Origin: a virus
DNA: 64,000 nucleotides
IMG/VR virus record: IMGVR_UViG_3300018424_005577
Location: 1 to 64,000 of that record
Strand: one strand, 5' to 3'
Positions 1 through 17,187 of the stretch are shown piece by piece. Position 1 is the stretch's first letter; each line of letters opens with the position of its first letter. The translations under genes were made by a program, and so were the position numbers. The notes beneath the pieces were generated by a model. That model was not told the DNA's origin. It saw only the letters and a list, made by a program, of their open reading frames with translations, and ran no database searches.

Positions 1-713
1 ATTCCGTTGTAGAGCTTTTTGAGTTGGTCTTCTGTGTATCCGTCAACCACTCTTGAGGCGGTTGGATCGGACTGAGGCTTGAGAGTGACATTAATACCTC
101 TGGCATGGAAATATAAGGCGTTGTCCCAGTCTCGTTCAAAGTTTTCTGGAACCATGACCATATTGATCGTAACTTGTACATCATGTTCTTGACATAGGAT
201 GAGTTTATTTGCAAACTCTTCCATCCTTTCAGTTGTATTTACATGTTCTGTGTGTAAACTAGCTGTAATAGAGGCTCTATGAAATGGCTTTGCACGTTCT
301 ACATAATCTTCAAACCATTTCATAGAGCGCGAACAGTTTGATGTCATGTGTATACTTGTGTAATTTGTGTTTTCTACATCATCTGCTAAATGCTTTAGTA
401 TATCGAGGTATCCAGGATGGAAAGTAGGTTCTCCTCCTGACAAGGAGAAGTGAAAAGAATTGAAGCCGTTGAGTCTGGCTTGACGTTTAATTTCATCCAC
501 TGTAAGCAAGCAGAGCTCGGTAGGACGATGGTCTTTACGGTCGCTTCTTGCGTAAGGCCAGCAGTAGGAGCATCTGTAATTGCAGAATCTACCAAGTAGC
601 CATGATACTGTAAATATATCACGATAAAGCAAAGTACGTTGACCAACACCGACAATATCGTTAAATGGGATCTTAGTGAAATCATAATTACTCCATTTTA
701 AATCTTCAGTCAT
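1..713 (-). CDS. Radical SAM protein, 3' end beyond window
   Basis: The reading frame starts at ATG 713-711 and stays open to the left window edge (237 codons visible). The cluster motif CNYRCSYC lies at residues 44-51 and the SAM-binding GGEP at 93-96, so this is a radical SAM enzyme that binds a [4Fe-4S] cluster and cleaves S-adenosylmethionine. Its CNYxCSYC motif and the preceding Trp-x-x-Gly-Arg are shared with the 3593-4780 protein; it lacks the N-terminal Cys domain of the other island members. Any C-terminal auxiliary cluster lies outside the window. It is separated from the upstream gene by 34 bases holding its own sigma-70 promoter. The predicted transcript starts almost at the ATG, so the message may be leaderless. 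Substrate unknown. Confidence 0.88.
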   Translation of the reverse strand, partial: MTEDLKWSNYDFTKIPFNDIVGVGQRTLLYRDIFTVSWLLGRFCNYRCSYCWPYARSDRKDHRPTELCLLTVDEIKRQARLNGFNSFHFSLSGGEPTFHPGYLDILKHLADDVENTNYTSIHMTSNCSRSMKWFEDYVERAKPFHRASITASLHTEHVNTTERMEEFANKLILCQEHDVQVTINMVMVPENFERDWDNALYFHARGINVTLKPQSDPTASRVVDGYTEDQLKKLYNG

Positions 714-718
714 AATTT

Positions 719-747
719 AGTATACTACCTTTAATTAAATATGTCAA
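719..747 (-). promoter_or_regulatory. Sigma-70 promoter for the last island gene
   Basis: On the minus strand TTGACA (747-742), a 17-base spacer and TATACT (724-719). The -35 box begins directly after the stop codon of the 748-1965 gene. The -10 box ends only 6 bases before the ATG at 713. Confidence 0.72.
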
Positions 748-1965
748 CTAACTTTGCAACCAATCTACTATGTTGCTATGTAAATAATCTTTGTAATTTT
801 GTTGCCTTGATTTATCAAACAATCCTACTTCTAATAACGCTTTAGCCTTATCGCATTTATTACGTAATACGGCATCATCTATTAAGTTAACTAACTTTTC
901 TGTGTCTTGATTCAATTTAAGTATATCTGTAAGAGCATCTTCTAAAATATCTACAGGCAAATGCTTTAATGCAACACCTCTATCAAAAGGATAAACTTCA
1001 GCCCAATGTACAATAGCTTCACAAGGTAAACTATGACACCATTCTATAAAATCAGGAATATTGTAAATATTGTATAGCATAGGAATAAAACTTATATGTA
1101 TATGTCTAGGCTTACAAGCGTCTATATATTTGCGTAAACTGCTATCAAGTTGCTTCCATGACATAGGATGTCTTATATATTCGTATACTTTTCCATGTCC
1201 GTCTATGCTAAAATTTAAATTAGTTTTAAACTCTTTCAGCATAGAACAAATTTCGTCGTCAAACAGTGTCCCGTTTGTATGAAATTCTAATTGTATATTT
1301 TTACTGTTACCTTCATCAATTGCTTTTTGTAAAAATTTAATTACATGAGGATTGTAAAAAGGCTCACCGCCTGCAAGTTTTAGGATGCTAAATTTGTCAG
1401 TGTTATTATGAATCCAATGCCATTGCTTTACATTGTCCATTTTCCAACTATGCGGAGACACTGCCCATCTACCATCTACTGCCTTGTCTATAGACGGAAT
1501 AAGTCCTTCTTTTTTAAAAAAATTTGTATCTTTTTTTAGTTGACTAGATGCAGACGGATCGCACATTCTACATCTAAGGTTACACGAATTATTTACATGT
1601 GTATCAATAATTTCTAGTTTAGGATTGTCAGCAAGTTTTTGTGCTTCGTCGTCATCTACTTGGGCGTCTTGACGGAAACTCTTTACACCTCTATCTTCCA
1701 TCTCCCAACATACTTTACATGCACTATCTCTTATACCATTTTTTAAATTTTGTCTTAGTTTTTCCATTCTAGGATGGTTAAACATTTCTAATGGCGTTAA
1801 CTGGCTTACATCTCCTTCAATTTGTAGCACATTACTATCTTGATGTACATCGTTACCCATCATACAACAAGGCCAAAAAGTTCTCAATGAACCGTCGGCT
1901 TCAAAAGTTTTAGGCGCAACTTGAGAAAATGGATGAACGCAAAAAGTAGACTTATCAATTGACAT
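748..1965 (-). CDS. N-terminal-twitch radical SAM protein (405 aa)
   Basis: Radical SAM core with CNLRCRMC at residues 128-135 and GGEP at 199-202. The region before the core carries Cys9, a Cys33-Cys34 pair after a DGSLR stretch, and Cys83-x-x-Cys86, which resembles a half-SPASM ('twitch') auxiliary Fe-S site placed N-terminal to the core. This matches the phage/marine family I recall as N-terminal twitch radical SAM. Known relatives with auxiliary clusters modify peptides or carbohydrates; the substrate here cannot be read. The start ATG at 1965 has a GAGGA ribosome-binding site and overlaps the upstream gene by 11 bases. Four similar paralogues lie in the same operon (1955-3055, 4770-6089, 6899-8248, 8241-9641). 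Confidence 0.88.
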   Translation of the reverse strand: MSIDKSTFCVHPFSQVAPKTFEADGSLRTFWPCCMMGNDVHQDSNVLQIEGDVSQLTPLEMFNHPRMEKLRQNLKNGIRDSACKVCWEMEDRGVKSFRQDAQVDDDEAQKLADNPKLEIIDTHVNNSCNLRCRMCDPSASSQLKKDTNFFKKEGLIPSIDKAVDGRWAVSPHSWKMDNVKQWHWIHNNTDKFSILKLAGGEPFYNPHVIKFLQKAIDEGNSKNIQLEFHTNGTLFDDEICSMLKEFKTNLNFSIDGHGKVYEYIRHPMSWKQLDSSLRKYIDACKPRHIHISFIPMLYNIYNIPDFIEWCHSLPCEAIVHWAEVYPFDRGVALKHLPVDILEDALTDILKLNQDTEKLVNLIDDAVLRNKCDKAKALLEVGLFDKSRQQNYKDYLHSNIVDWLQS

Positions 1966-3055
1966 GTATATCTTCCTCTATCAAGTGATATAATTCTTTA
2001 TTCAGTGTTGACCAGTGTTCATTTCTTAGTTGATTTAATTTCGTATCCATGTGTAAAAACTTTTTAAAATCACCAGATTGTTTAAGTTCGTCTACAATAA
2101 GTTTGTATATAGGTTGATCCTTAAACTTGTATTTTTCAATGTAAATGTTTTTTACATGATCAGGTAGATGTCTTGGCATCATCCAATCAGGTCCGTCTGC
2201 CATTACATATTTTTGATTTATATCTAAAGATTTACAAAAGTCCATTAGTTCATGCACTTTATTAATGTTGTATATACTAGCAACGCTATGTACACTAGGA
2301 TTAGCACCTTGCTCTTTAAACCAAAGTATATTAGATTTTACTTCGTCCCATTTACTGCCTTTACGCAAAAAATCATTTAATGGACCATAGCTATCAACAC
2401 TTAATTTTACACTTAGTTTACCTACTTCTTTAAGTAGTTCTAATAGCTCGCCTTGCGGCCTGATTGTAGTATTAGTAATTAATAGTAATGTTAGATTAGG
2501 TCTATCGCATTTTTTAAGTAAATCAATAAGTTTTTGCTCTTCCATTAAAGGTTCGCCACCTAGTAATTTTATAAATCTTAATTCGCTAAGATCATATTCG
2601 TCAAGAATTGTGTTTTCTGCAATTATACCACTGTGTTTTATACCTAATTTCTTAGCATCACTATACCAACTAGTACTAAGTTCAGGGCCGCACATTCTAC
2701 ACTTGTTATTACAAACATTACTAAATGTTAGATCTATGTTTGTTAGTTTAGGCACCTTGCCTCGGCCTTCTTCAGGAAATCCAAAATTTTGTACTTTGTT
2801 CATATCTAGCCGCATACTATGGCCGCTAGTTTTTTCATCTGCATAGCATCTGCTACAACCTTCTATGTATTCATCATTAAGCATTTTTTGCCTAATTTCT
2901 TTAAGAAAAGGATGATTAAAAGGATCTTTATGCTTTACAGTCAAATCATCAGGTGTTTCTTCCCATCTAAAATAACAGCAAGGAAATACTCTACCATCTG
3001 GTCTAGTTGCAATATGATGGAATGGAAGATCGCAACTATGTTTGCGTTTAGTCAT
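1955..3055 (-). CDS. N-terminal-twitch radical SAM protein (366 aa)
   Basis: CNNKCRMC at residues 115-122 and GGEP at 166-169 define the radical SAM core. An N-terminal cysteine region has Cys8, Cys26-Cys27 (after RPDGRVFP) and Cys67-x-x-Cys70 followed by a Ser-x-Arg box, the same layout as its operon paralogues. It is the shortest of the five twitch-type members and has a compact C-terminus with no extra cysteine cluster. The start ATG at 3055 overlaps the preceding 2OG-oxygenase-like gene by 8 bases, which suggests translational coupling. Reaction and substrate are unknown. Confidence 0.88.
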   Translation of the reverse strand: MTKRKHSCDLPFHHIATRPDGRVFPCCYFRWEETPDDLTVKHKDPFNHPFLKEIRQKMLNDEYIEGCSRCYADEKTSGHSMRLDMNKVQNFGFPEEGRGKVPKLTNIDLTFSNVCNNKCRMCGPELSTSWYSDAKKLGIKHSGIIAENTILDEYDLSELRFIKLLGGEPLMEEQKLIDLLKKCDRPNLTLLLITNTTIRPQGELLELLKEVGKLSVKLSVDSYGPLNDFLRKGSKWDEVKSNILWFKEQGANPSVHSVASIYNINKVHELMDFCKSLDINQKYVMADGPDWMMPRHLPDHVKNIYIEKYKFKDQPIYKLIVDELKQSGDFKKFLHMDTKLNQLRNEHWSTLNKELYHLIEEDIHVN

Positions 3056-3590
3056 TCAAAAATCCCGATACTTGCATAGTATACTTAGGTGAAAGTCCTG
3101 CATTAGCACTTAAATGCAAATGATCGCTATCCCAAATAAAACCATCTCCTGCCTTCCAATGAGTGCTTGTCTGCCATTCCTTATTATGATCTTCATAATT
3201 AATAAAATGTCCAGGCTTCCAATCCTCTAAGTATATATTTGCACGTACTTTTTTTCTTGTATCGTTAGGATACTTTTTGTTTATTTGGAAAAAAGTATCT
3301 CTATGCAATGTAATTACATTTCCAGGAGGTTGTAAAATTGTGCTAAGAGTAACTACTTCTATGCCAAGTTGTTCTCCTATTAATTTGTAATCAACATCGC
3401 CGTCGTCCCACCATAGTTGTTGTATTCTAGTATTATCTTCGTGATAGCTTTCTGGAAACCCTTTGCCATATTTTTCGTGAAGATCTTCTTGTTCACGTTT
3501 TTGATAACTTATACAACTGCCATAATGCTGAGAATAATCAGCACTTAAAAATTTATCCAAGTTATAATTAAAATTTATATGTTCTATCAT
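3048..3590 (-). CDS. Probable 2OG-Fe(II)/cupin-fold oxygenase (180 aa)
   Basis: The sequence has an HRD iron-binding motif at residues 96-98 (context ITLHRDTFF) and a distal histidine in WDSDHLHLSANAG (His157 or His159). This gives the HxD...H facial triad expected of non-haem iron oxygenases with a double-stranded beta-helix fold. The downstream strand reads YTMQVSGF, with no clear 2-oxoglutarate-binding arginine, so an aspartyl-hydroxylase-like or cupin variant is possible. Start ATG at 3590 with AGGAAT upstream. It lies two bases from one radical SAM gene and overlaps the next by 8 bases, so it is probably part of the same pathway, perhaps hydroxylating an intermediate (inference). Confidence 0.6.
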   Translation of the reverse strand: MIEHINFNYNLDKFLSADYSQHYGSCISYQKREQEDLHEKYGKGFPESYHEDNTRIQQLWWDDGDVDYKLIGEQLGIEVVTLSTILQPPGNVITLHRDTFFQINKKYPNDTRKKVRANIYLEDWKPGHFINYEDHNKEWQTSTHWKAGDGFIWDSDHLHLSANAGLSPKYTMQVSGFLND

Positions 3591-3592
3591 GG

Positions 3593-4780
3593 TTATTCCT
3601 TTACTAACGGTGCAAGTACTTCGGTCCTAAAATGTCCTTTAGCAACGTCTATATAATTTTCTTTATATTTACTTTTAGGCGCACACAACCCGCAACCGCA
3701 GGTATGTTTAGGACACGTAATTGTCGGCATAGTACCACTTTTTAATTTTTCTTTTAATTCAGCAATAATTTTTTTGCCTTCACTTATTTTTCCTATTGCA
3801 CCTCTTGTTCCGTCAAATCGTGCTTGACAAGTTTGATGATGGAACACACTATCAGTTTGCTGTTCTAAATGTAGGAAAAACCAATTAACACTACAACTCC
3901 AACCTTTAAATTCTCTAAGATCTACAAATGTGCTTTTGCGACTTTCACCATTGTTACTAAGACACATTGTCCTACTACCGCAACAAGGTCTTCCTATTGT
4001 CATTCCTAGTTTTTTCTTTTCTGTAGTTTTTTCGCCAGCGGCACTTAACACTGCTGTTTCTTCTTGATCTTTTTGTTTTTTGTTTAATCTAGCATTTCTA
4101 TATTCCCAATAATTTTTCATATAGTCTAACTGCTCTTCAGTGTATGTATGAGCAAAGTTACTTCTGCTATCTGGCTCTTCTCCAATTATACGAGGTACAT
4201 ATTTTACTTCATGTTCGTCTAAAAACTCACACAAATCTTTGCACTCGTCAAAGTATGCCGCATGGAACATTACATTAACACTGACAGTAAAATTATTTGC
4301 AGGACCTTCAGTATGAAATTGTAGTATTCTATCTCTGACCTGTTGTTTTAGTTTGTTGTCACTTTCTGCATGATAGCTCACTGTAGCATGGCCAAAATTT
4401 TGCATAACTGCATCTGCCATTTTTTTACTCATTGCGCCATTAGTAGTGAGGGCAAACCCGCACTGCCATTTGTCTGCATATTTTTCGTCATACTGACTTT
4501 TCAAATATTGAGCAAACGGAATAAAATTGGGATTAACTGTAGGTTCTCCGCCGGTAAATCCTATATTTGCCTCTTTAAAAAGTCTATGTTGCATATAAGT
4601 GTCTATATATTCAAACAAGAAATCGGTATTATTTTTAAGTTCTTCTAAACTAGCATGTTTACTAAAATTATCATGCCTATGTGCTGGACAGTAACTACAG
4701 TCATAATTACAACGTCTGCCTGTATCCCATGTAACTTGAAAAACTTTGCCTGTTAGTAAGTCTATTGTATCAAAACTCAT
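3593..4780 (-). CDS. Radical SAM protein with C-terminal cysteine clusters (395 aa)
   Basis: CNYDCSYC lies at residues 24-31, close to the N-terminus, and GGEP at 77-80. There is no N-terminal twitch region. The C-terminal half is cysteine-rich: a CCGSRTMC segment, further single cysteines, and a final CPKHTCGCGLC group near residue 360, enough ligands for one or two auxiliary Fe-S clusters or a zinc site. The motif spacing and WDTGRRC context resemble the partial gene at 1-713, so the two form a separate subfamily within the operon. It overlaps the upstream gene by 11 bases. The substrate is not recognisable. Confidence 0.87.
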   Translation of the reverse strand: MSFDTIDLLTGKVFQVTWDTGRRCNYDCSYCPAHRHDNFSKHASLEELKNNTDFLFEYIDTYMQHRLFKEANIGFTGGEPTVNPNFIPFAQYLKSQYDEKYADKWQCGFALTTNGAMSKKMADAVMQNFGHATVSYHAESDNKLKQQVRDRILQFHTEGPANNFTVSVNVMFHAAYFDECKDLCEFLDEHEVKYVPRIIGEEPDSRSNFAHTYTEEQLDYMKNYWEYRNARLNKKQKDQEETAVLSAAGEKTTEKKKLGMTIGRPCCGSRTMCLSNNGESRKSTFVDLREFKGWSCSVNWFFLHLEQQTDSVFHHQTCQARFDGTRGAIGKISEGKKIIAELKEKLKSGTMPTITCPKHTCGCGLCAPKSKYKENYIDVAKGHFRTEVLAPLVKE

Positions 4781-6089
4781 TTAAATATTCCTTGAATGCA
4801 GGTTCTACTTCTGTTAAATTTTCGCCGCGTATAGCGTCTAAACGCTTCGTGTAGCGTTGGAATTCTTCCCAATGGGTGTTGTAGTAACTGTCACTATTCA
4901 TATACGTACACACACCGTTTGCAATGTCTTGTGCCTGCTTAACTACATGCTCATTAAAATTTTTATCCTTGGTCCATTGCACAAATTCTTCAAATCTTTT
5001 GGTTAATTTTTCTTTTGCTTCATCTGGCAACACTCTAATATTTAAGTGTTGAGGATGATGAGCAACATGATGTGTGACTATCGGACGCCTGGTTGTGCTA
5101 TTAATTTTATTAAAGTTGCTCTCTGTAAGTTTCCATTTCATAAAGTCAATCATATGATTAACATTATATGCTGTAACTGTAAATGCTAACCAACCAATTA
5201 TATTGCTGGGCATGTTATCTAGTGTAAGTAAGTTTTTATACAACTTGTCCCATTTAGCAGGATGTCTCTGATATTCTATAACTTTGCCGTATCCGTCTAT
5301 ACTTGCTCCTACTCTAACCTGTTTAAAATTTTCCCATAGTTTTGCAACTCTAGGAGGTAGTGTACTCATATTAGTATTATATTCAATAATAATGTCTTTT
5401 GCAGAATCTTGATCAATACAACGTTGCAAAAAATCATAGTGTCGATCAATCAACATAGGCTCTCCGCCTGCAAAATATATGTGTCTAATATTGTTAATAT
5501 GTTTTTCTAAATATTCCCAAAAAGGTTCGTGATTAGGCCAATCATATTCACTAGCACAAAGTTTACCGTTTATTTGTTTTATTTCAATATCGCCACTTGT
5601 TTCTTTAAAAAAATTAGAACCAGTAAGTTTTATCCAATCATCATACCAAGCATTTGAATCAGTAGGTCCACACATACGACATTTTAAATTACAAAAATTG
5701 CCAAATCTAAGATCATAATATTTTACAGGAGTAGACGTTACATCTATAGTACCATCATCTTCTGTATCTTTTATTGCATCTTCTAATGTGTAATTCCATT
5801 GCTCTTGTTCATATTGCCGTCTACTGTTTAAGCCTGAAGTTTCTTCAGCTAAACAACGACCGCATTCTTTGTTCCATTTACCTTGAAGCATATTCAAACG
5901 CATTTCTTTCATTAGATCTGCATTACGAGCTTCGTCTAAGTCGTCGGATCCTGCATTGTATGCTGTGCCGTCTGCTTTGCGTATTACACCTCTATTTTTT
6001 GTTACGTTGGCTTGACAGCAAACACGTAGATCTCCGTTTGCTCTAGCGGCTTGAAATATCCAAGGTATAGGACAAAATGTATTAGCCAC
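4770..6089 (-). CDS. N-terminal-twitch radical SAM protein (439 aa, GTG start)
   Basis: The frame stays open upstream to 6209, but I place the start at GTG 6089-6087. It overlaps the upstream stop by 8 bases and puts the family's FCPIPW motif at residues 5-10, as in the paralogues. Numbered from there, Cys6, Cys24-Cys25 and Cys76-x-x-Cys79 form the N-terminal auxiliary site, CNLKCRMC is at 133-140 and GGEP at 208-211. It is close to the 8241-9641 paralogue in length and in shared boxes (IYFAGGE, an HHPxHLNxRVLP-type region). Presumed cytoplasmic enzyme; substrate unknown. Confidence 0.85.
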   Translation of the reverse strand: MANTFCPIPWIFQAARANGDLRVCCQANVTKNRGVIRKADGTAYNAGSDDLDEARNADLMKEMRLNMLQGKWNKECGRCLAEETSGLNSRRQYEQEQWNYTLEDAIKDTEDDGTIDVTSTPVKYYDLRFGNFCNLKCRMCGPTDSNAWYDDWIKLTGSNFFKETSGDIEIKQINGKLCASEYDWPNHEPFWEYLEKHINNIRHIYFAGGEPMLIDRHYDFLQRCIDQDSAKDIIIEYNTNMSTLPPRVAKLWENFKQVRVGASIDGYGKVIEYQRHPAKWDKLYKNLLTLDNMPSNIIGWLAFTVTAYNVNHMIDFMKWKLTESNFNKINSTTRRPIVTHHVAHHPQHLNIRVLPDEAKEKLTKRFEEFVQWTKDKNFNEHVVKQAQDIANGVCTYMNSDSYYNTHWEEFQRYTKRLDAIRGENLTEVEPAFKEYLNEF

Positions 6090-6906
6090 GATCAATTTCC
6101 CTAATAGTTTCTTGCAGTCTATCTTCGGCCCATTGCCTTTCTTCACACCACCAACACTGTTTGCACAAAGGAATGTCCATTCCATCTTTATAATCTTTGA
6201 AATGGCCACATGCTCTTTTTATAATTTCGTGTTGCTCTATATCGCCTTCACAACTACGAGTAATGTAGTACAACTCGTCTATACCGTAGATAAAATATTG
6301 TGCTACTATCCAATCTTTTTTAACAAATCGAAAAGGATGGGCAAGATATGCATCTTCTTTTTTACCGTATCTCCATACATCTTCAAGTACTCCGTCCTCT
6401 GCGTCTTTATCTCTATTTGTCATTCTATCAGCACGGGTTGCATCTGGATTTTTACTAGTAGCATTATAAACTGCATTTAAATTATTTTGCCAGGCAGCGA
6501 ATCTATTAAAACTTCCTACAATAATCTGATCTCCGCTTCTGCCATTTACAATAGGTCCTATAGCACCGTGTTCTAATTCAGGCGGAATATAATTTGTAAT
6601 TCTGTCAGTTATAATTTTAGGAAATCTGCTTTTTAACCAATTGTATACTTGTATGCTTACATAACCTTGCCAAGGTCTTGTTTCCCAACACCGTTGATAT
6701 GTTATTGCAGTCACAGTACAATCTGATTTATGTTTTTCAATAATAGAACAAATAAAGAAAGTTAACAACGCACTATCGGCACCTCCACTTAAATTAACAC
6801 CAACTTTTTTCCATGAAGGATCAAAAACAATTTTTAAATTACTAAAAGTTTCTACTATTTTATCTTGTGTAATTGTTTCATATAATTTGTTATTAATTTC
6901 AAACAT
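6082..6906 (-). CDS. QueC-like PP-loop ATP pyrophosphatase (274 aa)
   Basis: The PP-loop SGGADS lies at residues 40-45, after a strand GVNL, as in N-type ATP pyrophosphatases that adenylate a carboxylate or amide (QueC, asparagine synthetase, GuaA). The C-terminus has Cys219, Cys233 and CKQCWWC (Cys248, 251, 254), resembling the zinc-binding cysteines of QueC, which converts 7-carboxy-7-deazaguanine to preQ0. No QueD, FolE, QueE-sized or DpdA-like gene is in view, so assignment to deazaguanine synthesis is not supported; amidation or nitrile formation on another substrate is equally possible. It overlaps radical SAM genes on both sides by 8 bases. Confidence 0.7.
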   Translation of the reverse strand: MFEINNKLYETITQDKIVETFSNLKIVFDPSWKKVGVNLSGGADSALLTFFICSIIEKHKSDCTVTAITYQRCWETRPWQGYVSIQVYNWLKSRFPKIITDRITNYIPPELEHGAIGPIVNGRSGDQIIVGSFNRFAAWQNNLNAVYNATSKNPDATRADRMTNRDKDAEDGVLEDVWRYGKKEDAYLAHPFRFVKKDWIVAQYFIYGIDELYYITRSCEGDIEQHEIIKRACGHFKDYKDGMDIPLCKQCWWCEERQWAEDRLQETIREIDRG

Positions 6907-8248
6907 TGAGATTCCTTATAATATTATTGCCGGTAAATTTATAATTAACCATATGATCGTTAAAATTTTGTTTCCAAATTTCATCAGTTTTTCTAATGTA
7001 TACCATAAATGCTTCCCATTCACTTTCAGAAACATTATTGTTTAACACATAATGTTCTAAAAAGTCTAAACCTTTTAATGCAGTTTCTATATCAGAAAAA
7101 CTTGCTCCTTGTGTATTAGGTCTATAAGATGCTCTATTCTTATAGTTGTCTAAATTATCTAAACGTTTTTGCCTTTCATTAAGAATTGCTTCTCTTGTTT
7201 CTGCAAAGTCTTCTATTACATAATGTTTAAATTTTAAATTCATTAACGCCGGATTCATATATTTAGGTGTATACACAATAGAACTATCTATAAAGTTTAC
7301 ATCTAATTCCATAAACGATTCGAAAACATTTTTAATATCCATTATCTGGTATGCACTTGTAGTACAAACAATATTAAGTTCTGTTTCTTTATCTATACGT
7401 CTAAATATGTCGATATTTCTTTTTAATGTTTGCCAGTTGCCTGTTCTAAAATATCCATAAATATTTTTTCCTGCATCAACACTAACATGTATAATTGTCC
7501 TATTAAATGGTTTAAGTAATTTACTAAGTAATACAGGATCAAATCTAGCATTAAAATTTGAATGGAAGGAAATTTTTATATTGGCCGCATTAGGATGAGC
7601 CGCTAATAATTTTAAACAAGGAAAAAATTGCTTTTGATATAAAACTTCACCTCCGGAAAAATCTACCTTCATTATATTAGGAAAATTATTTTGCAGATCA
7701 TTAATAATTTCTTCCATTTGTGAAATATCAATAGATATAGATAGATCTACATCTTGATCTGTTTTATGAAATTCTCTAGTTAGTTGTATAAGTTTATGTT
7801 TTCTATCTTCTTCATCTGAAGTATATCTTTTTAATTTGCTCATCCATCCTGACGAATAGACGTCTGAACAATGTAGGCAAGACATATTACAACTATTACT
7901 GAACCTAAGTTCTATATGTTTTACAGATGCAAAATCTATTTCACCAGTTTGTTCATTATAAAGATCTAAATCAACCACTTCATCAAGCATATAATCAAAG
8001 TCTTGCCGCATACTATGGCTACCAATTGCTTCGGCATCTTTACACAAATGACACCCTGGACTCCAAGTACCAGACATCATTTCCTTACGATGCTTACGAA
8101 ACCCTTCACTATTAATTACATCAGAAGGCTTTAAAGTAGTATTTGTAATATCACATAACCTGTCAGATTGCTGAGGACAACTAGTTACAAAACCATTTTT
8201 GTAATTTATTCCTCCTAATGTATAGGGACAAATAATTTTTTCAGCCAT
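6899..8248 (-). CDS. N-terminal-twitch radical SAM protein, divergent (449 aa)
   Basis: CNMSCLHC is at residues 120-127. The SAM-binding motif is GGEV (199-202) rather than GGEP. The N-terminal cysteine region is reduced: Cys7, Cys24 (single, where paralogues have a CC pair), Cys32 and Cys66-x-x-Cys69, followed by the SHSMR box shared with the 1955-3055 protein. It keeps the general layout of the family but is one of its most diverged members here. ATG at 8248 overlaps the upstream stop by 8 bases. Substrate unknown; the altered GGE motif still keeps the glutamate that contacts the methionine amino group. Confidence 0.83.
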   Translation of the reverse strand: MAEKIICPYTLGGINYKNGFVTSCPQQSDRLCDITNTTLKPSDVINSEGFRKHRKEMMSGTWSPGCHLCKDAEAIGSHSMRQDFDYMLDEVVDLDLYNEQTGEIDFASVKHIELRFSNSCNMSCLHCSDVYSSGWMSKLKRYTSDEEDRKHKLIQLTREFHKTDQDVDLSISIDISQMEEIINDLQNNFPNIMKVDFSGGEVLYQKQFFPCLKLLAAHPNAANIKISFHSNFNARFDPVLLSKLLKPFNRTIIHVSVDAGKNIYGYFRTGNWQTLKRNIDIFRRIDKETELNIVCTTSAYQIMDIKNVFESFMELDVNFIDSSIVYTPKYMNPALMNLKFKHYVIEDFAETREAILNERQKRLDNLDNYKNRASYRPNTQGASFSDIETALKGLDFLEHYVLNNNVSESEWEAFMVYIRKTDEIWKQNFNDHMVNYKFTGNNIIRNLNV

Positions 8249-9641
8249 TAAAGATATCCTTCATTTCAGGAAAAGTTTCAGCAAAACTATTGCTTCTTTG
8301 AGTGTCACATCGTTTCAAAAATTCTTGCATCTCTGGTAAACGTACACTCCAATCTTCGCTTTCCATAAATTTTAGCATGCCTTCTAATCTTTTTATACCA
8401 TAACCAGCGTCCATAAATTTTTCTTTTGTAACTTTTCCTTTATGCCAACTAGGAATTCCTAATTCCCAATTTTCTTCCCACCAAGGATAAAACTCTTCGT
8501 ACTTGCGACGGCATTCTTCTTTAAACCATTTAGGTAATACTTTAACATTTAAATGAGGAGGATGATAAACAAAATGATAGTTAATTCCTCCTGCTCCAAA
8601 TGGCCACATATTAATTTTTCTAAATCCTTGTTGCAATTTCCATTTAATAAAATCTGGTATGTAATAAATGTTTAGTGCTTGTACAGCACACGCAACTGTG
8701 ACTTCTGTATTATCAGGAGTTTCTTTATCAAGTATATGAAACACTTCTTCTGTACGTTCCCATTTACTAGGGTAACGAATATAACTATTCATTTCGTGTA
8801 TGCTGTCTACACTATAATGGAAACGTACTAATTTAAATTCTTTCCATAGATCAAACAAATCTTCACGCCATTCGACTCCATTACTATTATAACGCAGTTC
8901 TAGATCTTTTGCAATACCCTGACGTATTGCTTCTTCAAGTATTTCGTAGTGTTCTTCAATAATAAGACTTTCGCCGCCTGCAAAATATATTTGTTGCATG
9001 TTAGGCATTTGTTCATAAAACTGTTTCCAAAACGTAGGATTTTGTTTGTGCCAATTGTAACTACTACCGTTATAGCTTCCTTTGTCTTTCCATTGCATGG
9101 TTTCTTTTAGACTAGCATTTTCAACAGCAGGAAATATTGCTTTCCAATCTTTGATCCAACCTGAACTATCATGCGGGCTACACATTACACACGCAAGTTG
9201 GCACTTGGTACCAAAACGCAAATCAATATATGCAAGTTGCGGAGGAACGCTGCCATCTTCAGCTGTGCTTGCAATTAGGTTATCTACATCAACACGCTCG
9301 CTCCAATAAGCGGTCTCCCACATACGCTTACTATTATGTCCTGCCGCTTCTTCTTTGTAACATTTCATGCAACTGGGAGGCATTTCTCCATTGAGCATTT
9401 GTAGTCTTACATTTTTCATGTAAGTACTATTCCAGGCTGTTTCAAAATCGCTTACATTAAGATTATTAGGTTTGCCGTCATCAGTTTTTAATATTCCTAC
9501 TTGTCCGCCATGTTTTTTATCATTAGTAGGTCCTACACTGCTTGCATTAGCAGTGCAACAAACACGCATACTTCCGTCTGGTCTAGTTGATAGATGAACC
9601 CAAGGTAAAATACACCAAGTGTCGGATACTTTTTTAGTCAT
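8241..9641 (-). CDS. N-terminal-twitch radical SAM protein (466 aa)
   Basis: CQLACVMC at residues 147-154 is the radical SAM cluster motif; the GGEP position reads GGES (222-225). Cys10 (in WCILPW), Cys28-Cys29 (after RPDGSMRV) and Cys91-x-x-Cys94 form the N-terminal auxiliary site. It is the longest of the five twitch-type paralogues and most similar to 4770-6089. The 12-base gap on its 5' side is one of the few places in the operon where genes do not overlap. Reaction unknown. Confidence 0.85.
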   Translation of the reverse strand: MTKKVSDTWCILPWVHLSTRPDGSMRVCCTANASSVGPTNDKKHGGQVGILKTDDGKPNNLNVSDFETAWNSTYMKNVRLQMLNGEMPPSCMKCYKEEAAGHNSKRMWETAYWSERVDVDNLIASTAEDGSVPPQLAYIDLRFGTKCQLACVMCSPHDSSGWIKDWKAIFPAVENASLKETMQWKDKGSYNGSSYNWHKQNPTFWKQFYEQMPNMQQIYFAGGESLIIEEHYEILEEAIRQGIAKDLELRYNSNGVEWREDLFDLWKEFKLVRFHYSVDSIHEMNSYIRYPSKWERTEEVFHILDKETPDNTEVTVACAVQALNIYYIPDFIKWKLQQGFRKINMWPFGAGGINYHFVYHPPHLNVKVLPKWFKEECRRKYEEFYPWWEENWELGIPSWHKGKVTKEKFMDAGYGIKRLEGMLKFMESEDWSVRLPEMQEFLKRCDTQRSNSFAETFPEMKDIFNG

Positions 9642-9653
9642 ACTTATACTTAC

Positions 9654-10718
9654 CTAATTAACTACGTAGTTTATTTCGTTATGATATGCTTTGTTTTTTG
9701 CACAAGTTTTTATGCATCTAGGCAAATGCATACCGTGATATGGATGCCAACTTGCTTTTAGTAATTTTTGATACCACGGATGCTTCATAACTTCTTGTAT
9801 AGAATGAACTTTCAAACTATTCCAGTTAGGATCGAAGTTAGAAAGTTTGTCTAATATACCTTCTTTATTTTTAAAAGCACTATCCCAGAGAAAACAACAA
9901 GGCCACATAGTTAAATCGCTGGCAATAAATATTTCTCCTTCGTGAATGTACTTACAAACAATACTATCAGTAATTTCTTTTATCTTAGATTCATCTACTT
10001 TAGTGTTTTGATATTCTTCAATAAACTTGTCTAATTCTTTTACTGTTTTTACTTTGCTGTGTTCTTTTTCGCCGGTTGTTGTAATAGTTTTCTTTTCTTC
10101 TACAATTTTTTTATTTTGTTTTCTTTTTAATGTAGCTACCCAATCGTCATAACTATTACGCATACCTGTTCTAGTAGCAAATTTAAAACCTAATTCTTTG
10201 GCATGCTGTTTTGCAATTTCTAATTCGTGTTCATTATGATCAAAAACAATGTATATCCAAGACGCATTTTCTTTTGGTGCAACAGACGAAAATGCTTGCA
10301 TGTTTCTTTCAATAACATCAAATTTAGTGTTAACTCTGTAAATATGATTAGTTTCTTTATGTCCGTCTACACAAAAATGTATATGCAATCTGCCAGGATA
10401 ATCATTTGCTATTGCACCTAAACTTTTCCACCATTGTGCAGTTTGATAGCCACCGTTTGTACTAAGTTCGCAATACGCTCCGTTGGTCACTAGATAATCC
10501 ACCATCTTGACGCATTCTACATTAAGAGCCGGATCACCTAAAACTCCGCAAAATTTAAATTCTTTGCCACGTATGTCTGCTTCAGTAGGAAACAATCTTA
10601 CAATATCATGAAAGTTAAAACTATTAATTTTTAACCTATCACTATTAAGTGTTCTAGCACATCCTGGACACGCCGCATTGCAGTTACTTGTAATTTCTAA
10701 TTCAATTTTGTTTATCAT
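9654..10718 (-). CDS. Radical SAM protein with C-terminal SPASM-like cysteines (354 aa)
   Basis: CNAACPGC lies at residues 13-20, at the very N-terminus after a TSN strand. The GGEP position reads LGDP (60-63). A C-terminal SPASM-like set is visible: Cys255, then a strand ending in Cys274-Cys275 (MWPCC), then Cys335 and Cys339. A lysine-rich, low-complexity linker (about residues 196-240) separates core and tail. It is a clear paralogue of the next gene upstream (10715-11800), with which it overlaps by 4 bases. SPASM-type enzymes often modify peptides or proteins (established for the family); the substrate here is unknown. Confidence 0.86.
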   Translation of the reverse strand: MINKIELEITSNCNAACPGCARTLNSDRLKINSFNFHDIVRLFPTEADIRGKEFKFCGVLGDPALNVECVKMVDYLVTNGAYCELSTNGGYQTAQWWKSLGAIANDYPGRLHIHFCVDGHKETNHIYRVNTKFDVIERNMQAFSSVAPKENASWIYIVFDHNEHELEIAKQHAKELGFKFATRTGMRNSYDDWVATLKRKQNKKIVEEKKTITTTGEKEHSKVKTVKELDKFIEEYQNTKVDESKIKEITDSIVCKYIHEGEIFIASDLTMWPCCFLWDSAFKNKEGILDKLSNFDPNWNSLKVHSIQEVMKHPWYQKLLKASWHPYHGMHLPRCIKTCAKNKAYHNEINYVVN

Positions 10719-11800
10719 TTAAATTGTTCCGCATATGGATCAAACTCAGTTCCGCACTTCATTGCACAGACACCTAACTTTCCATTTTGTATTCCTTGTA
10801 TAGACCAACTGTCTTGTATTCCTTTCAGTAAAGTTCCTTGCATTACTTGTTCAAGATCATTGTTTATAATATCTATACCTTCCTTTCCGCCTGCTGAGTC
10901 AATATGATCCCAAATCTGTTCTACCCTTGGATCAGGATGCCACCATTTATACATACGTCCGGCAGTCCAACAACAAGGCATTAACAAGCCTTCGGCTGTT
11001 ACAAATATACTACCTTGTTCAGCAACTTTACATTTTACAGAACAGGTATCATAGTACTTTTGCATACTGCCGTATGTGTTAGTTATTTCTTCTTCTTTAA
11101 GCAAAGCTAAATTAATATTTTTTGTATCTTTAGGTTTTGCTAAATTTTGTGTTTGTTCTCCCTTTCTGTTCACTGCTTGGTGCGTTTCTTTTCCAGAAAG
11201 TTGCGAAGTGCTGTAAAATCTGCCTGTCTTTTTTCTTACAAATTTTTCAAAACCCATACTGTTCGCTATTTCTTCTGCACGATCAACTTGATGTTCGTTA
11301 TGTTCAAAAACTATAAAATCCCAGCGAGCTCTACCGCCGGCGGCAATAAATGCCTTAGCACTTCGTTCTACATTATCCCAAACAACATTCTGCCTGTATA
11401 GGTGATTAGTATCCCTAAGGCCATCCACGCTAAAAATAACAGCACCCATTCTACCAAAAACTTGGGCAAGTTCAGTCCACCATGCTTCATCTTTTGCTCC
11501 TGCATTTGTATTCATACTCAACCACATTTTAGGGTTATGTTCTCTAAAATATTTGAAAACTTCTAGTGTATCTTTAGCAACAATAGGATCGCCTAAGTTG
11601 CCACACATATACATTGTGTTAAGTTGTTTAATAAAGTCTGGTTTAAAAATACGTTTACAATCTTCAAGACTTAACTCTGCATTTGTTATGTGAGGATTAT
11701 CTGTGCCGCCATTACAATTTCTATCACACATAGGGCAGGCCGCTTGACAACGTTGTGTAATTTCTAAATGTACTTCTTTAATGTTTTCGTATCTATACAT
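10715..11800 (-). CDS. Radical SAM protein with C-terminal SPASM-like cysteines (361 aa)
   Basis: CQAACPMC lies at residues 18-25, followed by a further Cys29. The GGEP position reads LGDP, within MCGNLGDP. The C-terminal half contains CxVKCKV, a strand ending in LLMPCC, and CAMKC near residue 350, the same spacing as in the 9654-10718 protein. Both share an IVFxHNEH box and a variable charged linker near residues 200-240. The pair probably arose by tandem duplication. It overlaps the 74-aa gene upstream by 8 bases. The function may be peptide or small-molecule modification (inference). Confidence 0.86.
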   Translation of the reverse strand: MYRYENIKEVHLEITQRCQAACPMCDRNCNGGTDNPHITNAELSLEDCKRIFKPDFIKQLNTMYMCGNLGDPIVAKDTLEVFKYFREHNPKMWLSMNTNAGAKDEAWWTELAQVFGRMGAVIFSVDGLRDTNHLYRQNVVWDNVERSAKAFIAAGGRARWDFIVFEHNEHQVDRAEEIANSMGFEKFVRKKTGRFYSTSQLSGKETHQAVNRKGEQTQNLAKPKDTKNINLALLKEEEITNTYGSMQKYYDTCSVKCKVAEQGSIFVTAEGLLMPCCWTAGRMYKWWHPDPRVEQIWDHIDSAGGKEGIDIINNDLEQVMQGTLLKGIQDSWSIQGIQNGKLGVCAMKCGTEFDPYAEQFK

Positions 11801-12017
11801 CGTGTACTAACTTTACATCTTTTCCTGGGCCAACTTTACTAGGCAAATCACCATATTGAGCAACATACCAGAGAATTACTGCTTTGTACCAGTTATGACT
11901 ATTATGATGTGCTTCTTTGTTAAATTGTGTAATATTATTACTTGTTGCTTGCATGGTGCTTAATGCCCTTGCACTTTCTAATTGAAGTTCTCTGACTGTA
12001 AATTTATCTAATTCCAA
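11793..12017 (-). CDS. Small unknown protein (74 aa, TTG start)
   Basis: I do not recognise this protein. The only initiator available is TTG 12017-12015, because a stop lies two codons further upstream in this frame. It overlaps the methyltransferase-like gene by 14 bases and the following radical SAM gene by 8, which supports it as real. The sequence is mixed helical with a His/Asn-rich middle (HHNSHNWY) and a WYVAQYGDLPSK segment. It has no cysteines and no leader/core split, so it does not look like a typical RiPP precursor, though a substrate or adaptor role for neighbouring enzymes cannot be excluded. Confidence 0.6.
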   Translation of the reverse strand: MELDKFTVRELQLESARALSTMQATSNNITQFNKEAHHNSHNWYKAVILWYVAQYGDLPSKVGPGKDVKLVHDV

Positions 12018-13047
12018 TTTTCATAAACCTCTTATATTTTTCTAAGTCTAACACACCTTCAAACAAAACTTGCTTCATCGGTGTTTCATCCGAAAACTCT
12101 TTAAGACTAGATTTACAATTAATATGTTCTTCGATATCAAAGTAATTATTTGTCTGCAATACAACTAAGGTGCCACTTTGTAATTTTTCATACCAATCAC
12201 TAAAATTAGGTATATGTTCACAACTTGTGTTAATAACTGTAGTAGGACTATCAGACATATTAGATAGTTGTCCTTCTTTGTTTATTGTTTGATAGTTATA
12301 ATTTTTATAATCTATATCAAATATATTTTTTGTTGTTGCTTTAAATTTCCAATCTTGTACTAACCAACTTTTATTAAAGACTTCTGCTATGTCGGCACAA
12401 CTAGGATCTATGTCAAAACTTCTAATTTTTGATATATGTAAATTACTTTCAAACAACATAGTTGCTAGTGTACCGTACCAACCAGCACATAAAAATACTG
12501 TGCCTAGTGATCTATTAATTTTTTGAAGTTCGTCTACTAACCATATTTTACTTTTAAGTTGTCCTCTACTAAAACAATCATTATCTATCTCTATACTATC
12601 TGCTAAAATTCTTTTAAAGGCTTGAGTAAAGTCAGTTTGAACAAATCTGTCAAATATATCAAACAGTTTCCAAATGTTATCTTCAAGTACAAGTTTACGA
12701 ACATCTTCGTCGTATATAAATCTAAATATGCTGTAAAGATTTTCGCCTATTACAGCCTTTCTTAATTCTACATTATCAACAAGTCTAAAAATACTGTGTA
12801 AATTATTTTCTAATATTGCTTTACGTAAATCATCAGCTTCGCCTTTTACTGTAACATCTCCAATAACACGAAACAAACTGTGTAGATTTTTTTCTACAAC
12901 TGCTTTACGTAGTTCTTCATTTGCATTAGTGACACGAAATATACTATTAAGGTCTTTATCTATATAGGCACGCCTTAGATTTGATATATTTGTGTCGTTT
13001 GGATACAGCAACTCATATCTATCTAGCAGTTCATGAATTTCTAGCAT
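12004..13047 (-). CDS. Methyltransferase-like protein with N-terminal ~25-aa repeats (347 aa)
   Basis: Residues about 20-145 hold about five imperfect repeats of the form LRKAVxExNLxSIFRxxxD. The C-terminal part looks like a Rossmann-fold class I methyltransferase: VFLCAGWYGTLA (a glycine-containing motif I), IRSFDIDPSCADIA (acidic motif II), NIFDIDY, and TTVINTSCEHIPNFSDWY followed by a LVVLQTNNYF strand. Such proteins recur in marine T4-like phages; the methyl acceptor is unknown and a non-methylating SAM-binding role is possible. The repeats may be a helical scaffold for partner binding (inference). ATG at 13047; overlaps of 17 and 14 bases with its neighbours place it firmly in the island operon. 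Confidence 0.7.
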   Translation of the reverse strand: MLEIHELLDRYELLYPNDTNISNLRRAYIDKDLNSIFRVTNANEELRKAVVEKNLHSLFRVIGDVTVKGEADDLRKAILENNLHSIFRLVDNVELRKAVIGENLYSIFRFIYDEDVRKLVLEDNIWKLFDIFDRFVQTDFTQAFKRILADSIEIDNDCFSRGQLKSKIWLVDELQKINRSLGTVFLCAGWYGTLATMLFESNLHISKIRSFDIDPSCADIAEVFNKSWLVQDWKFKATTKNIFDIDYKNYNYQTINKEGQLSNMSDSPTTVINTSCEHIPNFSDWYEKLQSGTLVVLQTNNYFDIEEHINCKSSLKEFSDETPMKQVLFEGVLDLEKYKRFMKIGIR

Positions 13048-14638
13048 TAAATTGTTCCTTCAACCAATCAAAGTTGTTAATTTTTTTGAGAGCTTCAATA
13101 TCACCTCTGTTACTTTCACCGTATTTTCTGCCGGCTCTTGCACCGTCAGTTACATAATTACCAAATGGCTCGTCCTTGCCTTTATCACTACACCATATAT
13201 TTAGACGTAATTCCGTTTCGACATCCTTTTGTCTATCTATAACTTTGCTTGATAATTTGCAACATTCTCTAAAGCCACTTTTCCAAGCACTAAACGGGTC
13301 TGTATTAAACTCGGTACTATTAGAAACTTCTTTTACCGCTTTAAAATGTCTACTTATACTTGTAGTCATATCCGGTTTAGATGTATCCATTTCTATTGTT
13401 GCTATCCTTGGAAATAATTTTACTCCGCCGTAGCCATATTCTAAACCTTTTACTTTGTTTTCACATCGCCAAACATGAACGTGATCTTTTTCCTTAGCTG
13501 GCACCACATAATCAAAATTAAAATCATCATTTATAACTGCGTCTCCATCTACAATCCATATCATATCTGTACTACACTGTTTTGCCGCTTCAATATGTGC
13601 TTGATGGATTCCTTTTATCCCATGAACACGTTTTGCACGAGGAAATCTTTTAATTAAATTTTCATAGTTTTTGTCTGCGTTAACTTCATTGTAACTGATA
13701 AACACAATATCGTATTCTTCATTAGAAATACTTGAACTATTAGATATATTTTTGTAGCTAGATCGCTCTTGATTAATGTAAACAGTTTTAAAGAACTTGC
13801 TTTGATCTTCATCTAATGGTTCAACAGCTATAGGCAAATCTAATTCTTCTTTTAATTGAAATCCAAGATCTTCTATTGGACTATCTACGAATGAAAAGTC
13901 CTTATTATTCCAATATTCATTCAGCCATTTAAAATCACGCACATTTACAAAGTTCCAATCTGTACACATAGTTTTGTACAAACCTTCTCTTGCACCATAT
14001 ATTGCCCATTTACCGTTTTCTACGTCTGCACCTACCATTAACCATACATAAAGTCTGTGCAAGTTTTTCCAATGTAAACCTTTTAGTCTTTCTTTAGAAA
14101 CTTTTTGTCCTTCATTTAGTGCCATTTTAACACCTTCGCGGAATCCTGCTCTCCAGGCTTGTTGAGGTGTAGCATTATTCATAATAGTACTATATGTTCC
14201 AGGCAAATGATAATAATTTATATCCCAACAAAAGTCTACCTGTGCTTGTAGGTTATCAGGGGCGGCGTTTTCATGTGTTTTCATGTTTAGTATTATACTT
14301 TTAGGCCAACACTTTATTCCGCCGTTGCCATAAACTAATCCGTTGATGTTATTTTTTGCAGTAAAACTTATAACGGTTTTGTAAGGATTAAAATCATTGC
14401 CTAATACAAATTCTTGATTAATAAAATCTTGATTTACTATATTGTCGCCGTCTACAATAATTAATCTATCAGTTTCACTAATATTTGCACATGCTTTATG
14501 CGCCGCATCACTACCTTCAACACCATGAACACGTTTTGCCCAAGGAATTTTTTTGCATAAATCTGCATAATTCTTTTCTGCGTTTGGCTCGTCATACGAC
14601 AAGTATATTACATCACAGTCTGGTACTCTAAGTTTCAT
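13031..14638 (-). CDS. Tandem-duplicated glycosyltransferase-like protein (535 aa)
   Basis: Two homologous halves. Each begins with a strand of the type D-V/I-x-x-SYxExNAxKNY, continues with RVHGxxGxxxAH, and reaches a VDGD acidic motif (about residues 62-65 and 363-366), then GGxKxxP and an AWxxGFRE box. The DGD after a hydrophobic strand resembles the DxD metal and nucleotide-sugar site of GT-A glycosyltransferases. Catalysis has not been shown for this family as far as I know, so 'glycosyltransferase-like' is an inference from fold motifs. The halves are diverged enough to have been separate for a long time. It overlaps neighbours by 11 and 17 bases. Confidence 0.68.
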   Translation of the reverse strand: MKLRVPDCDVIYLSYDEPNAEKNYADLCKKIPWAKRVHGVEGSDAAHKACANISETDRLIIVDGDNIVNQDFINQEFVLGNDFNPYKTVISFTAKNNINGLVYGNGGIKCWPKSIILNMKTHENAAPDNLQAQVDFCWDINYYHLPGTYSTIMNNATPQQAWRAGFREGVKMALNEGQKVSKERLKGLHWKNLHRLYVWLMVGADVENGKWAIYGAREGLYKTMCTDWNFVNVRDFKWLNEYWNNKDFSFVDSPIEDLGFQLKEELDLPIAVEPLDEDQSKFFKTVYINQERSSYKNISNSSSISNEEYDIVFISYNEVNADKNYENLIKRFPRAKRVHGIKGIHQAHIEAAKQCSTDMIWIVDGDAVINDDFNFDYVVPAKEKDHVHVWRCENKVKGLEYGYGGVKLFPRIATIEMDTSKPDMTTSISRHFKAVKEVSNSTEFNTDPFSAWKSGFRECCKLSSKVIDRQKDVETELRLNIWCSDKGKDEPFGNYVTDGARAGRKYGESNRGDIEALKKINNFDWLKEQFNARNS

Positions 14639-15197
14639 TTTTTACTCTAAATCCGTAGTCTTTAAAACGCTTAGGCGTATAGATACTTAACTTTGTAAGA
14701 TTGCACTCGTCGTCAGTTGTGAACGGAATCTCAATTACACCAGTTTCACATAGTTCTTCTATGTCTACACGTAGTAATCTATACAATATGTTTAGATCAC
14801 CATGTTTAGTAACACTAAAATTTAATGTTTCACCTACAAACATGCCTTTCATGTTAGTACACAATTCATCTGAAAGAATAATTCGCCAAACTTTAGTTGT
14901 ATTATCCTTTTCTATAGTGCAATCTTTGTTACTATACGAATAAGGAATGCTATGATGGAAATCATTAATATCAAATGTAGTTTTATTAATAGAATCTGTT
15001 TCTTTTAACTCAAATTTTTTCGTTTCAGGATTATAAATTACCCTAAAATTGTTTTTTGATACTTTACCTTCAAGGATAGGTCCGGCTATTTCATATGGAA
15101 CTTGTATTTGCGAAGGAGCATCAATAGGAGGTGCGCCGATTTGCTTGATTTTACCAGTTTTTTTATCGAACCCTAGTGCAATATTACCCTTGTACAT
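14628..15197 (-). CDS. Unknown beta-rich protein (189 aa)
   Basis: I do not recognise this protein. It starts at ATG 15197 and overlaps the upstream glycosyltransferase-like gene by 14 bases and the downstream one by 11. It opens with a GFDKKTGKIKQIG hairpin-like repeat, then a proline-rich IGAPPIDAPSQIQVP stretch, then alternating short hydrophobic and charged segments suggesting beta structure. No signal peptide, membrane segment or cysteine cluster is visible. Its place between sugar-transferase genes suggests a role in the same process, but nothing in the sequence defines it. Confidence 0.7.
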   Translation of the reverse strand: MYKGNIALGFDKKTGKIKQIGAPPIDAPSQIQVPYEIAGPILEGKVSKNNFRVIYNPETKKFELKETDSINKTTFDINDFHHSIPYSYSNKDCTIEKDNTTKVWRIILSDELCTNMKGMFVGETLNFSVTKHGDLNILYRLLRVDIEELCETGVIEIPFTTDDECNLTKLSIYTPKRFKDYGFRVKNET

Positions 15198-15993
15198 CTT
15201 CGAACTTCCTAATTATATCCTCATTAACAAAACTATTATCTGTATAATGAAAAACAGTGTGTTGAGCATGATTTCCTATTTTTAAATTTGCATCATCATC
15301 TACAAAAACGCTTACTCTTGTTGACCAATTATCACTATACTTTTCCCAATTTTGTATTGCAGGTTTCATATGTACTAAATTAGGCATAATGTTATTTTTT
15401 TGTCTAATATCTAATACAATATGGGTAATTGCTGTAATGATATCCATGCTAGGTTCTTTAGGCATGTTCTTAGGGCAGAATATCCTGTAGTATTCTTGCC
15501 AATTATCAGCTATATGTTTTTGCGTAGTATAAAACTGTTTTGAATATTTGCTTTTTTTAAAGTAGAAAAATGCGTTATAAACGTTAGGTAAATTATTACT
15601 AATAAATGCTTTCCTGTAAAACGTATCTTTTATTTTCTCGCCCCTATATGTAAAGACAGTATCACAATAATAAACATCAGTATTCATTGCTTGCCAGAAA
15701 TAATCTAAATTATGCAATACTAATACATCACTATCCATTGAAATTGTTTCTTCGTAAGGAGACAGTTCATAGATAAACTGTCTAGCATAGGTTTTAAATC
15801 TACTATTATCGCCATTGTATGTAGGTACAGGAATTATTTTATCAAAAATATACTTGTAATTTGCTACATCAGTATTAGTAATTAGGCTTACTGGAATATG
15901 TTGATTAAATTTTTTTATACTTAATGCACACAGATATGCTTGTTGTATATATTGCTCACCTTCGGCATACAATACAAATCCTTTATTACTCAT
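15184..15993 (-). CDS. GT8/GT-A-like glycosyltransferase (269 aa)
   Basis: An N-terminal strand KGFVLYAEG is followed by a helix with LCALSIKKFN, PVSLITNTD, and the acidic motif MDSDVLV with DSD at residues 87-89. This is the GT-A layout of GT8-type transferases that move a sugar from a nucleotide donor using a divalent metal. The upstream paralogue (15986-16816) has the same layout with DTD. Length fits a single catalytic domain without membrane anchor. It may modify host or virion glycans or a product of the radical SAM genes (inference). It overlaps both neighbours (8 and 14 bases). Confidence 0.68.
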   Translation of the reverse strand: MSNKGFVLYAEGEQYIQQAYLCALSIKKFNQHIPVSLITNTDVANYKYIFDKIIPVPTYNGDNSRFKTYARQFIYELSPYEETISMDSDVLVLHNLDYFWQAMNTDVYYCDTVFTYRGEKIKDTFYRKAFISNNLPNVYNAFFYFKKSKYSKQFYTTQKHIADNWQEYYRIFCPKNMPKEPSMDIITAITHIVLDIRQKNNIMPNLVHMKPAIQNWEKYSDNWSTRVSVFVDDDANLKIGNHAQHTVFHYTDNSFVNEDIIRKFEDVQG

Positions 15994-17156: not shown

Positions 17157-17172
17157 AAGATACTCCTGTATT

Positions 17173-17187
17173 GTGTATATTATACAC
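17173..17187. promoter_or_regulatory. Perfect palindrome over the -10 box (candidate operator)
   Basis: GTGTATA and TATACAC form a perfect 7-base inverted repeat around a single central base. The dyad covers the -10 hexamer (17179-17184) and the predicted transcription start of the island operon. A DNA-binding dimer here would block the promoter; it could also just be a chance AT-rich dyad. Confidence 0.4.

Follow-up and report, generated by a model that had tools for sequence, protein, structure and literature searches.

The radical-SAM island and its surroundings

The left end of the virus record IMGVR_UViG_3300018424_005577 in IMG/VR, a linear sequence of 101,911 bases of which bases 1–64,000 were analysed here (the window), carries on its minus strand an 11.8-kb run of eleven genes, nine of which encode radical S-adenosylmethionine (radical-SAM) proteins (R1 to R9, numbered from the left edge). 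The virus is a large marine one of the T4-like kind: its major capsid protein shares about 70% identity with the corresponding proteins of large T4-like phages, and baseplate-hub lysozyme and tail-fibre genes are also present in the window. That three of the nine genes, i.e. R9, R7 and R1, are retained by hundreds of viral relatives and grouped, often close to genes for sugar polymers, on Bdellovibrio-type chromosomes suggests a swappable radical-chemistry toolkit that decorates surface sugars.

An initial annotation had listed nine CxxxCxxC radical-SAM genes, and all of them were found on the minus strand with the starts it gave. Each of R1–R9 contains one such motif, and PF04055 detects 9/9 of the proteins at E<=2.7e-5 (the whole virus record has 13 PF04055 matches). 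The Pfam gathering score of 29.5 bits is passed by seven of them; R6 (26.4 bits) and R8 (19.6 bits) fall below it and are covered by NF033640 (209.7 bits) and phrog_21308 (E 2e-16), respectively. By score, R2, R3, R5, R6 and R7 belong to NF033640, the NCBIfam family of N-terminal twitch radical-SAM proteins (cut-off 170 bits), whose name specifies no substrate, whereas R1, R4, R8 and R9 with 29–43 bits stay outside. At the C-terminus of R8 and R9, twitch/SPASM-like cysteines can be seen by eye. R1 and R4 show weak mutual similarity. Values of dN/dS against relatives, for those radical-SAM comparisons that could be computed, were 0.02–0.30 (0.02–0.04 for R7), which argues that these genes are maintained and not there by chance.

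In the direction of transcription, the run consists of R9 (10715..11800; PF04055 31.1 bits), R8 (9654..10718), R7 (8241..9641; NF033640 419.1 bits), R6 (6899..8248), a PP-loop ATPase-like gene (6082..6906), R5 (4770..6089; NF033640 376.5 bits), R4 with a Cys-rich C-terminus (3593..4780; PF04055 39.6 bits), the putative HxD Fe(II) oxygenase gene Ox (3048..3590), R3 (1955..3055; NF033640 241.8 bits), R2 (748..1965; NF033640 238.7 bits) and R1 (1..713; PF04055 58 bits). The genes overlap by 4–11 nt, as the initial annotation had described for almost all of them, the exceptions being small gaps at Ox/R4, R7/R8 and R1/R2. For R5 a longer GTG-started open reading frame (ORF) from 6209 also exists; 6089 is the more plausible start, from which R5 overlaps the gene of the PP-loop protein by 8 nt. 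The PP-loop ATPase and the HxD-type oxygenase were likewise named in the annotation, and both are recognizable by eye, the former by an SGGxDS motif (SGGADSA) together with a QueC-like C-terminal Cys motif, the latter by HRD...H. Sequence searches gave the PP-loop protein no significant Pfam or PDB match (TilS_N, E 0.0025), and hidden Markov model searches gave no support for Ox as an oxygenase of this type.

The window starts at the contig end inside R1, of which it holds the first 237 amino acids. The island had been expected to continue past this edge, and it does: G016, a near-identical contig of 66 kb, completes R1 (372 amino acids), with which the operon ends, and beyond it carries a tail-fibre-like gene followed by four more radical-SAM genes, as well as a QueC-like PP-loop protein, oxygenases, a short-chain dehydrogenase and cupin-like proteins. 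Outside the island, the same contig has a gene that by motif resembles the 7-deazaguanine radical-SAM enzyme QueE (60779–61744).

Conserved anchors and exchangeable cassettes in related viruses

R7 has 324 relatives among viral contigs. We compared 34 distinct islands, for which presence of R1 and R9 was the selection criterion; R1, R7 and R9 occur in 34/34 of these, with a median identity of 84% for R7 and 83% for R1 (for R1, 78–89% to related viruses). The other genes come and go: R8 is found in 17 of the 34 islands, R4 in 16, R5 in 13, the PP-loop gene in 11, R6 in 8, R3 and R2 in 7 each, and Ox in one. The association of the anchors was also seen in loci that had been chosen by R7 alone, with R9 upstream of R7 in 67 of 69. 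In loci chosen by R1, R7 lies within 10 kb upstream in 39 of 72, at distances that spread from 1 to 9 kb, as expected from a variable insert between anchors. Usually, the anchors are accompanied by the small gene a74, a GT-A glycosyltransferase gene and b347 (see below).

The pool from which the cassettes are drawn is large. Across 80 loci, motif-bearing proteins fall into 90 clusters at 35% identity, and accessory genes in relatives encode a carbamoyltransferase, a sulfotransferase, a nitroreductase, QueC-like proteins, a halogenase, an oxygenase, an Asp hydroxylase, TauD and AMP-binding proteins. Related contigs (n=32) have 4–24 PF04055 matches each, with G017 and G032 (21 and 24 matches) among those most densely loaded. 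The window's gene order is kept almost completely in two distant relatives (loci L074 and L086). In the 256-kb relative G021 the interval from R7 to R1 is filled by a different radical-SAM set (164391–189678), with a transporter-like gene pair, recognized by eye, at 187613–189678; this contig also encodes a GDP-mannose dehydratase (E 1e-117), a UDP-sugar dehydrogenase, an epimerase, two cytidylyltransferases and a DAHP-synthase-family enzyme. Far from its island, among structural-looking genes, G021 has a second b347 homologue (48% identity; 57000–57692). The Fe–S carrier family PF01521 was absent from the 31 viral contigs searched, and a supply of Fe–S clusters by the viruses themselves was rejected as a component of the system. 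Among cultured phage isolates there were no homologues of a74 or GT535, and R7 found only proteins of about 20% identity.

The nine genes had been proposed to co-occur as one set that encodes a multistep radical pathway. With R2–R6 and R8 in only 7–17 of the 34 islands, such a set does not exist, and the variation in gene order among relatives rules out a fixed nine-gene pathway; the idea of a multistep radical pathway is partly supported, in that it holds up for the core of R1, R7 and R9 only.

Glycosyltransferases and tail genes upstream of the island

Upstream of R9, and on the same strand, lie a74 (11793..12017), b347 (12004..13047), GT535 (13031..14638), c189 (14628..15197), the glycosyltransferase-like pair GT269 and GT276 (15184..16816; gene order conserved), and d115 and e367 (16809..18315; order conserved), which are tail-proximal and head the run. 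GT535 appears to be a duplicated glycosyltransferase, with a predicted GT-A fold of its domain (AF2 pLDDT 92.7), an invariant DxD motif and GT2-type Foldseek neighbours such as WrtF, RmlT and ArnC (probability 1.00). PDB sequence searches found nothing for GT535 and b347; for b347, in which repeats and a Rossmann-like C-terminal domain can be seen by eye, family searches gave no match either. In profile searches GT269 gave a weak Mannosyl_trans3 match (E 0.0027), and neither GT276 nor c189, which is kept in relatives, matched a family.

The island follows baseplate and tail-fibre genes, all on one strand, with tail-fibre-type genes at 18347..27112 (the two that were tested fall into PHROG tail and tail-fibre families). 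Between these and the baseplate block, a single ORF of unusual size (27752–43858) encodes 5368 amino acids and has a homologue of 4806 amino acids (44% identity) in G021. A T4 late-promoter-like octamer, TATAAATA, stands ahead of e367 (18344..18351, minus strand), and its position 29–36 nt upstream of e367 recurs in four distinct viral loci besides that of the window virus. Since the exact octamer is rarer in the window than expected by chance (4 sites versus 13.3), this site lends modest support only; together with the tail-fibre genes that precede the island in the same orientation, however, it makes late expression along with the tail plausible. Two of the four sites are located directly ahead of a gene at 60327.

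A small viral protein coupled to R9

The protein encoded by a74 (74 amino acids) has 454 viral relatives and no credible match in 291 Bdellovibrionota genomes. In 57 of 66 scorable loci its gene immediately precedes R9, usually with an 8-nt overlap. A confident three-helix fold is predicted (AF2 pLDDT 91.5), for which there was no PDB match. Clusters for ribosomally synthesized and post-translationally modified peptides (RiPPs) have, next to the maturase, a short precursor with a leader and a variable core. The only small conserved gene examined, a74, does not fit this pattern: its product is globular, conserved along its full length, and has no Cys and no variable core. Being folded and virus-only, it is an unlikely RiPP precursor; more probably it serves R9 as a virus-specific adaptor or subunit.

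A counterpart on Bdellovibrionota chromosomes

Bacterial and archaeal genomes (84,980 species, one genome per species) were scanned for cellular relatives. R7 orthologues of more than 50% identity were found only in Bdellovibrionota metagenome-assembled genomes (one of them labelled 'bacterium') and on phage or phage-like contigs binned elsewhere. Among 291 Bdellovibrionota genomes, R1 (58–69% identity) occurs in 17 and R7 in 15, all 15 of which also have R1 (background 17/291; hypergeometric p 3e-23). A b347 gene is present in 26 genomes, among them each of the 17 with R1, and R9 (41% identity or more) in 15 of these 17 plus two others. Identities to the window proteins are 56–70% for R1, 53–64% for R7 and 41–48% for R9. 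The core of R1, R7, R9, a glycosyltransferase gene and b347 is usually adjacent, on contigs of up to 1.6 Mb. One cellular region contains reciprocal best hits to R1, R4, R5, R7, R8, R9, b347 and GT535, so that as many as six of the nine viral radical-SAM proteins have counterparts within one chromosomal region; reciprocal best hits to R4 (41–43% identity) were obtained in two chromosomal clusters, and to R5 (50–51%) in two Bdellovibrionota clusters. In contrast to the viral island, the cellular loci lack a74, usually have a single-domain glycosyltransferase and usually no tail genes.

Phage contamination as a source of these clusters was rejected, since a T4 capsid gene is present only in the genomes G038 and G039, where the clusters are on phage contigs, and absent from all genomes whose cluster sits on a non-phage contig. 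The cluster from G040, which gave no capsid match, was treated as viral, because it carries a74 and its R7 groups with viral R7. In R7 trees the main viral and cellular clades are apart with strong support, and a few divergent R7s from phage contigs, including one of a viral locus (L330), fall outside both. In the R1 tree, which has a midpoint root only, the viruses stand beside one Bdellovibrionota group. A region of a Bdellovibrionota-group genome, G203 (contig C21, 120700–139884), adjoins what by eye appear to be rplS, trmD, rimM and pheT and has the order R7–GT–R1, followed by homologues of the viral e367, d115, GT276, GT269 and GT535; despite these tail-proximal homologues, there is no T4-like capsid gene in this genome. 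The virus may reasonably be supposed to infect Bdellovibrionota, with other hosts also possible.

Where chromosomal, the clusters tend to be near genes for surface sugars. Of 11 chromosomal R1 loci, at least 6 have a GT2 gene no more than 10 kb away, compared to at most 9.6% expected (p ~2e-4), and GT2 genes account for 9 of 78 sampled neighbour genes. Single loci have an OafA-type acyltransferase with an SGNH domain, and an Asn synthase.

The cellular loci bear on two quite different explanations. A site prone to recombination, located behind the tail-fibre genes, might simply gather radical-SAM genes of unrelated roles as opportunistic cargo, and the occurrence of six of the nine in half or fewer of the related islands, as well as the 90 clusters in 80 loci, would be in line with that. 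Yet an invariant three-gene core of high identity, purifying selection and co-inheritance of the core in cells speak against it, and we consider it quite improbable. Scattered and independent gains had been named at the outset as what would refute a pathway, and against this test the pathway idea survives for the core only: with R1, R7 and R9 kept across islands and co-inherited in Bdellovibrionota, independent scatter does not account for the island, and nor does a pathway of nine fixed steps. Alternatively, the enzymes could hypermodify the viral DNA. Base modification in phages is known to involve radical-SAM, PP-loop and glycosyltransferase enzymes, and G016 has its QueE-like gene, albeit outside the island; the island itself, however, is in the tail region and not among replication genes, and in cells the core is chromosomal, unaccompanied by phage genes and close to genes for surface sugars, which leaves this explanation hardly any probability.

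What the pathway may produce

We regard the island as a late-expressed, tail-linked and modular glycan-tailoring pathway, an interpretation to which we give about an even chance. In a possible order of steps, the core of GT535, b347, R9, R7 and R1 would build and radically modify a sugar or glycan unit, with a74 serving R9 as a virus-specific adaptor, and the cassettes between the anchors (twitch-type radical-SAM enzymes, PP-loop/QueC-like ATPases, oxygenases and others) would alter the decoration. The finished glycan may be placed on the tail adhesins of the virion or on the envelope of the infected cell, with late timing slightly favouring the virion. In favour of this reading are the place of the island behind the baseplate and tail-fibre genes, the late-promoter-like element, the pattern of core and cassettes, the GT-A domain of GT535, the cellular core with its GT2 neighbours, the nucleotide-sugar genes of G021 and the carbamoyl- and sulfotransferases among the accessory genes. 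By combinatorial diversification, i.e. an invariant glycosyltransferase and three-radical-SAM core common to large marine phages and Bdellovibrionota, combined with virus-specific cassettes, each virus might even arrive at an adhesin or envelope glycan that is peculiar to it and without chemical precedent, a tentative extension that we would sooner doubt than assert.

Several observations weigh against a glycan product. Twitch/SPASM radical-SAM enzymes are mostly peptide modifiers, and the nearest PDB matches to the profile of R2, R3 and R5–R7 include the peptide maturase SkfB. Most cassette enzymes, such as the Asp hydroxylase, TauD, nitroreductase and halogenase, would fit peptides or small molecules equally well. 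In addition, TM scores of the Foldseek neighbours of GT535 are only about 0.4, a nucleotide-sugar gene was not recognized in the window's own island, and for five of the 11 cellular R1 loci no GT2 gene is listed at up to 10 kb from R1.

The main rival is modification of a peptide or protein, which is possible, if rather unlikely. One after the other, the radical-SAM enzymes would modify a ribosomally made substrate, for which a tail adhesin (or a74) is the likeliest candidate. Cross-links, epimers or hydroxylations of the kind known from RiPP maturation would result, with GT535 glycosylating the product afterwards. Besides the twitch/SPASM architecture, the tail-fibre genes directly preceding the island, the Asp/Asn hydroxylases among the accessory genes and the overlap of a74 with R9 all agree with such a role. 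The properties of a74, i.e. confidently folded, conserved along its length, Cys-free and without a variable core, do not, and cellular systems lack a74 altogether and keep R1, R7 and R9 without tail genes, G203 excepted. The initial annotation had left the choice between several modifications of one peptide or glycan and assembly of an unusual small molecule; as to the former, the evidence favours a glycan over a peptide, short of proof.

A diffusible metabolite made during infection, such as an antibiotic, signal or cofactor, seems improbable. The mixed biosynthetic enzymes of relatives (AMP-binding, halogenase, carbamoyltransferase) and the presence of the pathway in cells would suit it, but no non-ribosomal peptide or polyketide synthase and no exporter was recognized, the island is closely tied to tail genes and a late-promoter-like element, and the glycosyltransferase core with its GT2-rich cellular neighbourhoods points back to the glycan.

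If glycan tailoring is indeed what these islands do, phages would offer a large and as yet untapped supply of radical chemistry on sugars, and also of variable surface structures on which infection depends.

Relation to known phage systems

Phage islands with multiple radical-SAM genes have been on record since 2010, with no explanation offered. In the Campylobacter T4-like phages CP220, CPt10 and F379 an exchangeable radical-SAM module has been described (Timms et al. 2010, PMC2853527); CP220 and CPt10 have 11–12 radical-SAM genes, five of them in a swappable cluster of 10–12 genes that also holds amidinotransferase and nucleotide-sugar genes and is not far from tail genes. A T4-like ocean genome has 12 radical-SAM genes (PMC5332604), and radical-SAM cassettes occur in the host-recognition cluster of SAR11 myophages, a hypervariable tail-fibre island of pelagimyophages and marine T4-like phages with glycosyltransferases and a proposed role in modifying host lipopolysaccharide (PMC7029224). 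The available parts of these three accounts give no mechanism. In view of this earlier work, the novelty of the island as an undescribed system had been overstated.

The CP220-type module and the window island are alike in that both belong to T4-like phages and have several radical-SAM genes in an exchangeable cluster. Proteins of CP220-type phages, however, reach only about 21% identity to R9 and include no match for R7; GT535 and a74 are missing, and, as far as the published account goes, there is no cellular counterpart. Their glycine amidinotransferase was not recognized in the window, and G021 has a weak match to the ADI/amidinotransferase superfamily (E 1e-4). With the marine host-recognition cluster, which lies between VrlC and gp14, the window can be compared by its tail fibres and glycosyltransferases only; the R9–R7–R1 core and a74 are not described for such clusters in what is accessible of PMC7029224 and PMC5332604. 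The genome with 12 radical-SAM genes, as presented in PMC5332604, has the Fe–S carrier that is absent from the 31 contigs here, and contigs in our set reach 24 PF04055 matches.

Thus, relative to the available parts of this literature, the R9–R7–R1/GT/b347 core, a74, the Bdellovibrionota counterpart and the counts of up to 24 are apparently new. With a defined core (GT535, b347, R9, R7 and R1) located on bacterial chromosomes, a puzzle so far confined to uncultured viruses becomes testable in cells and with purified enzymes.

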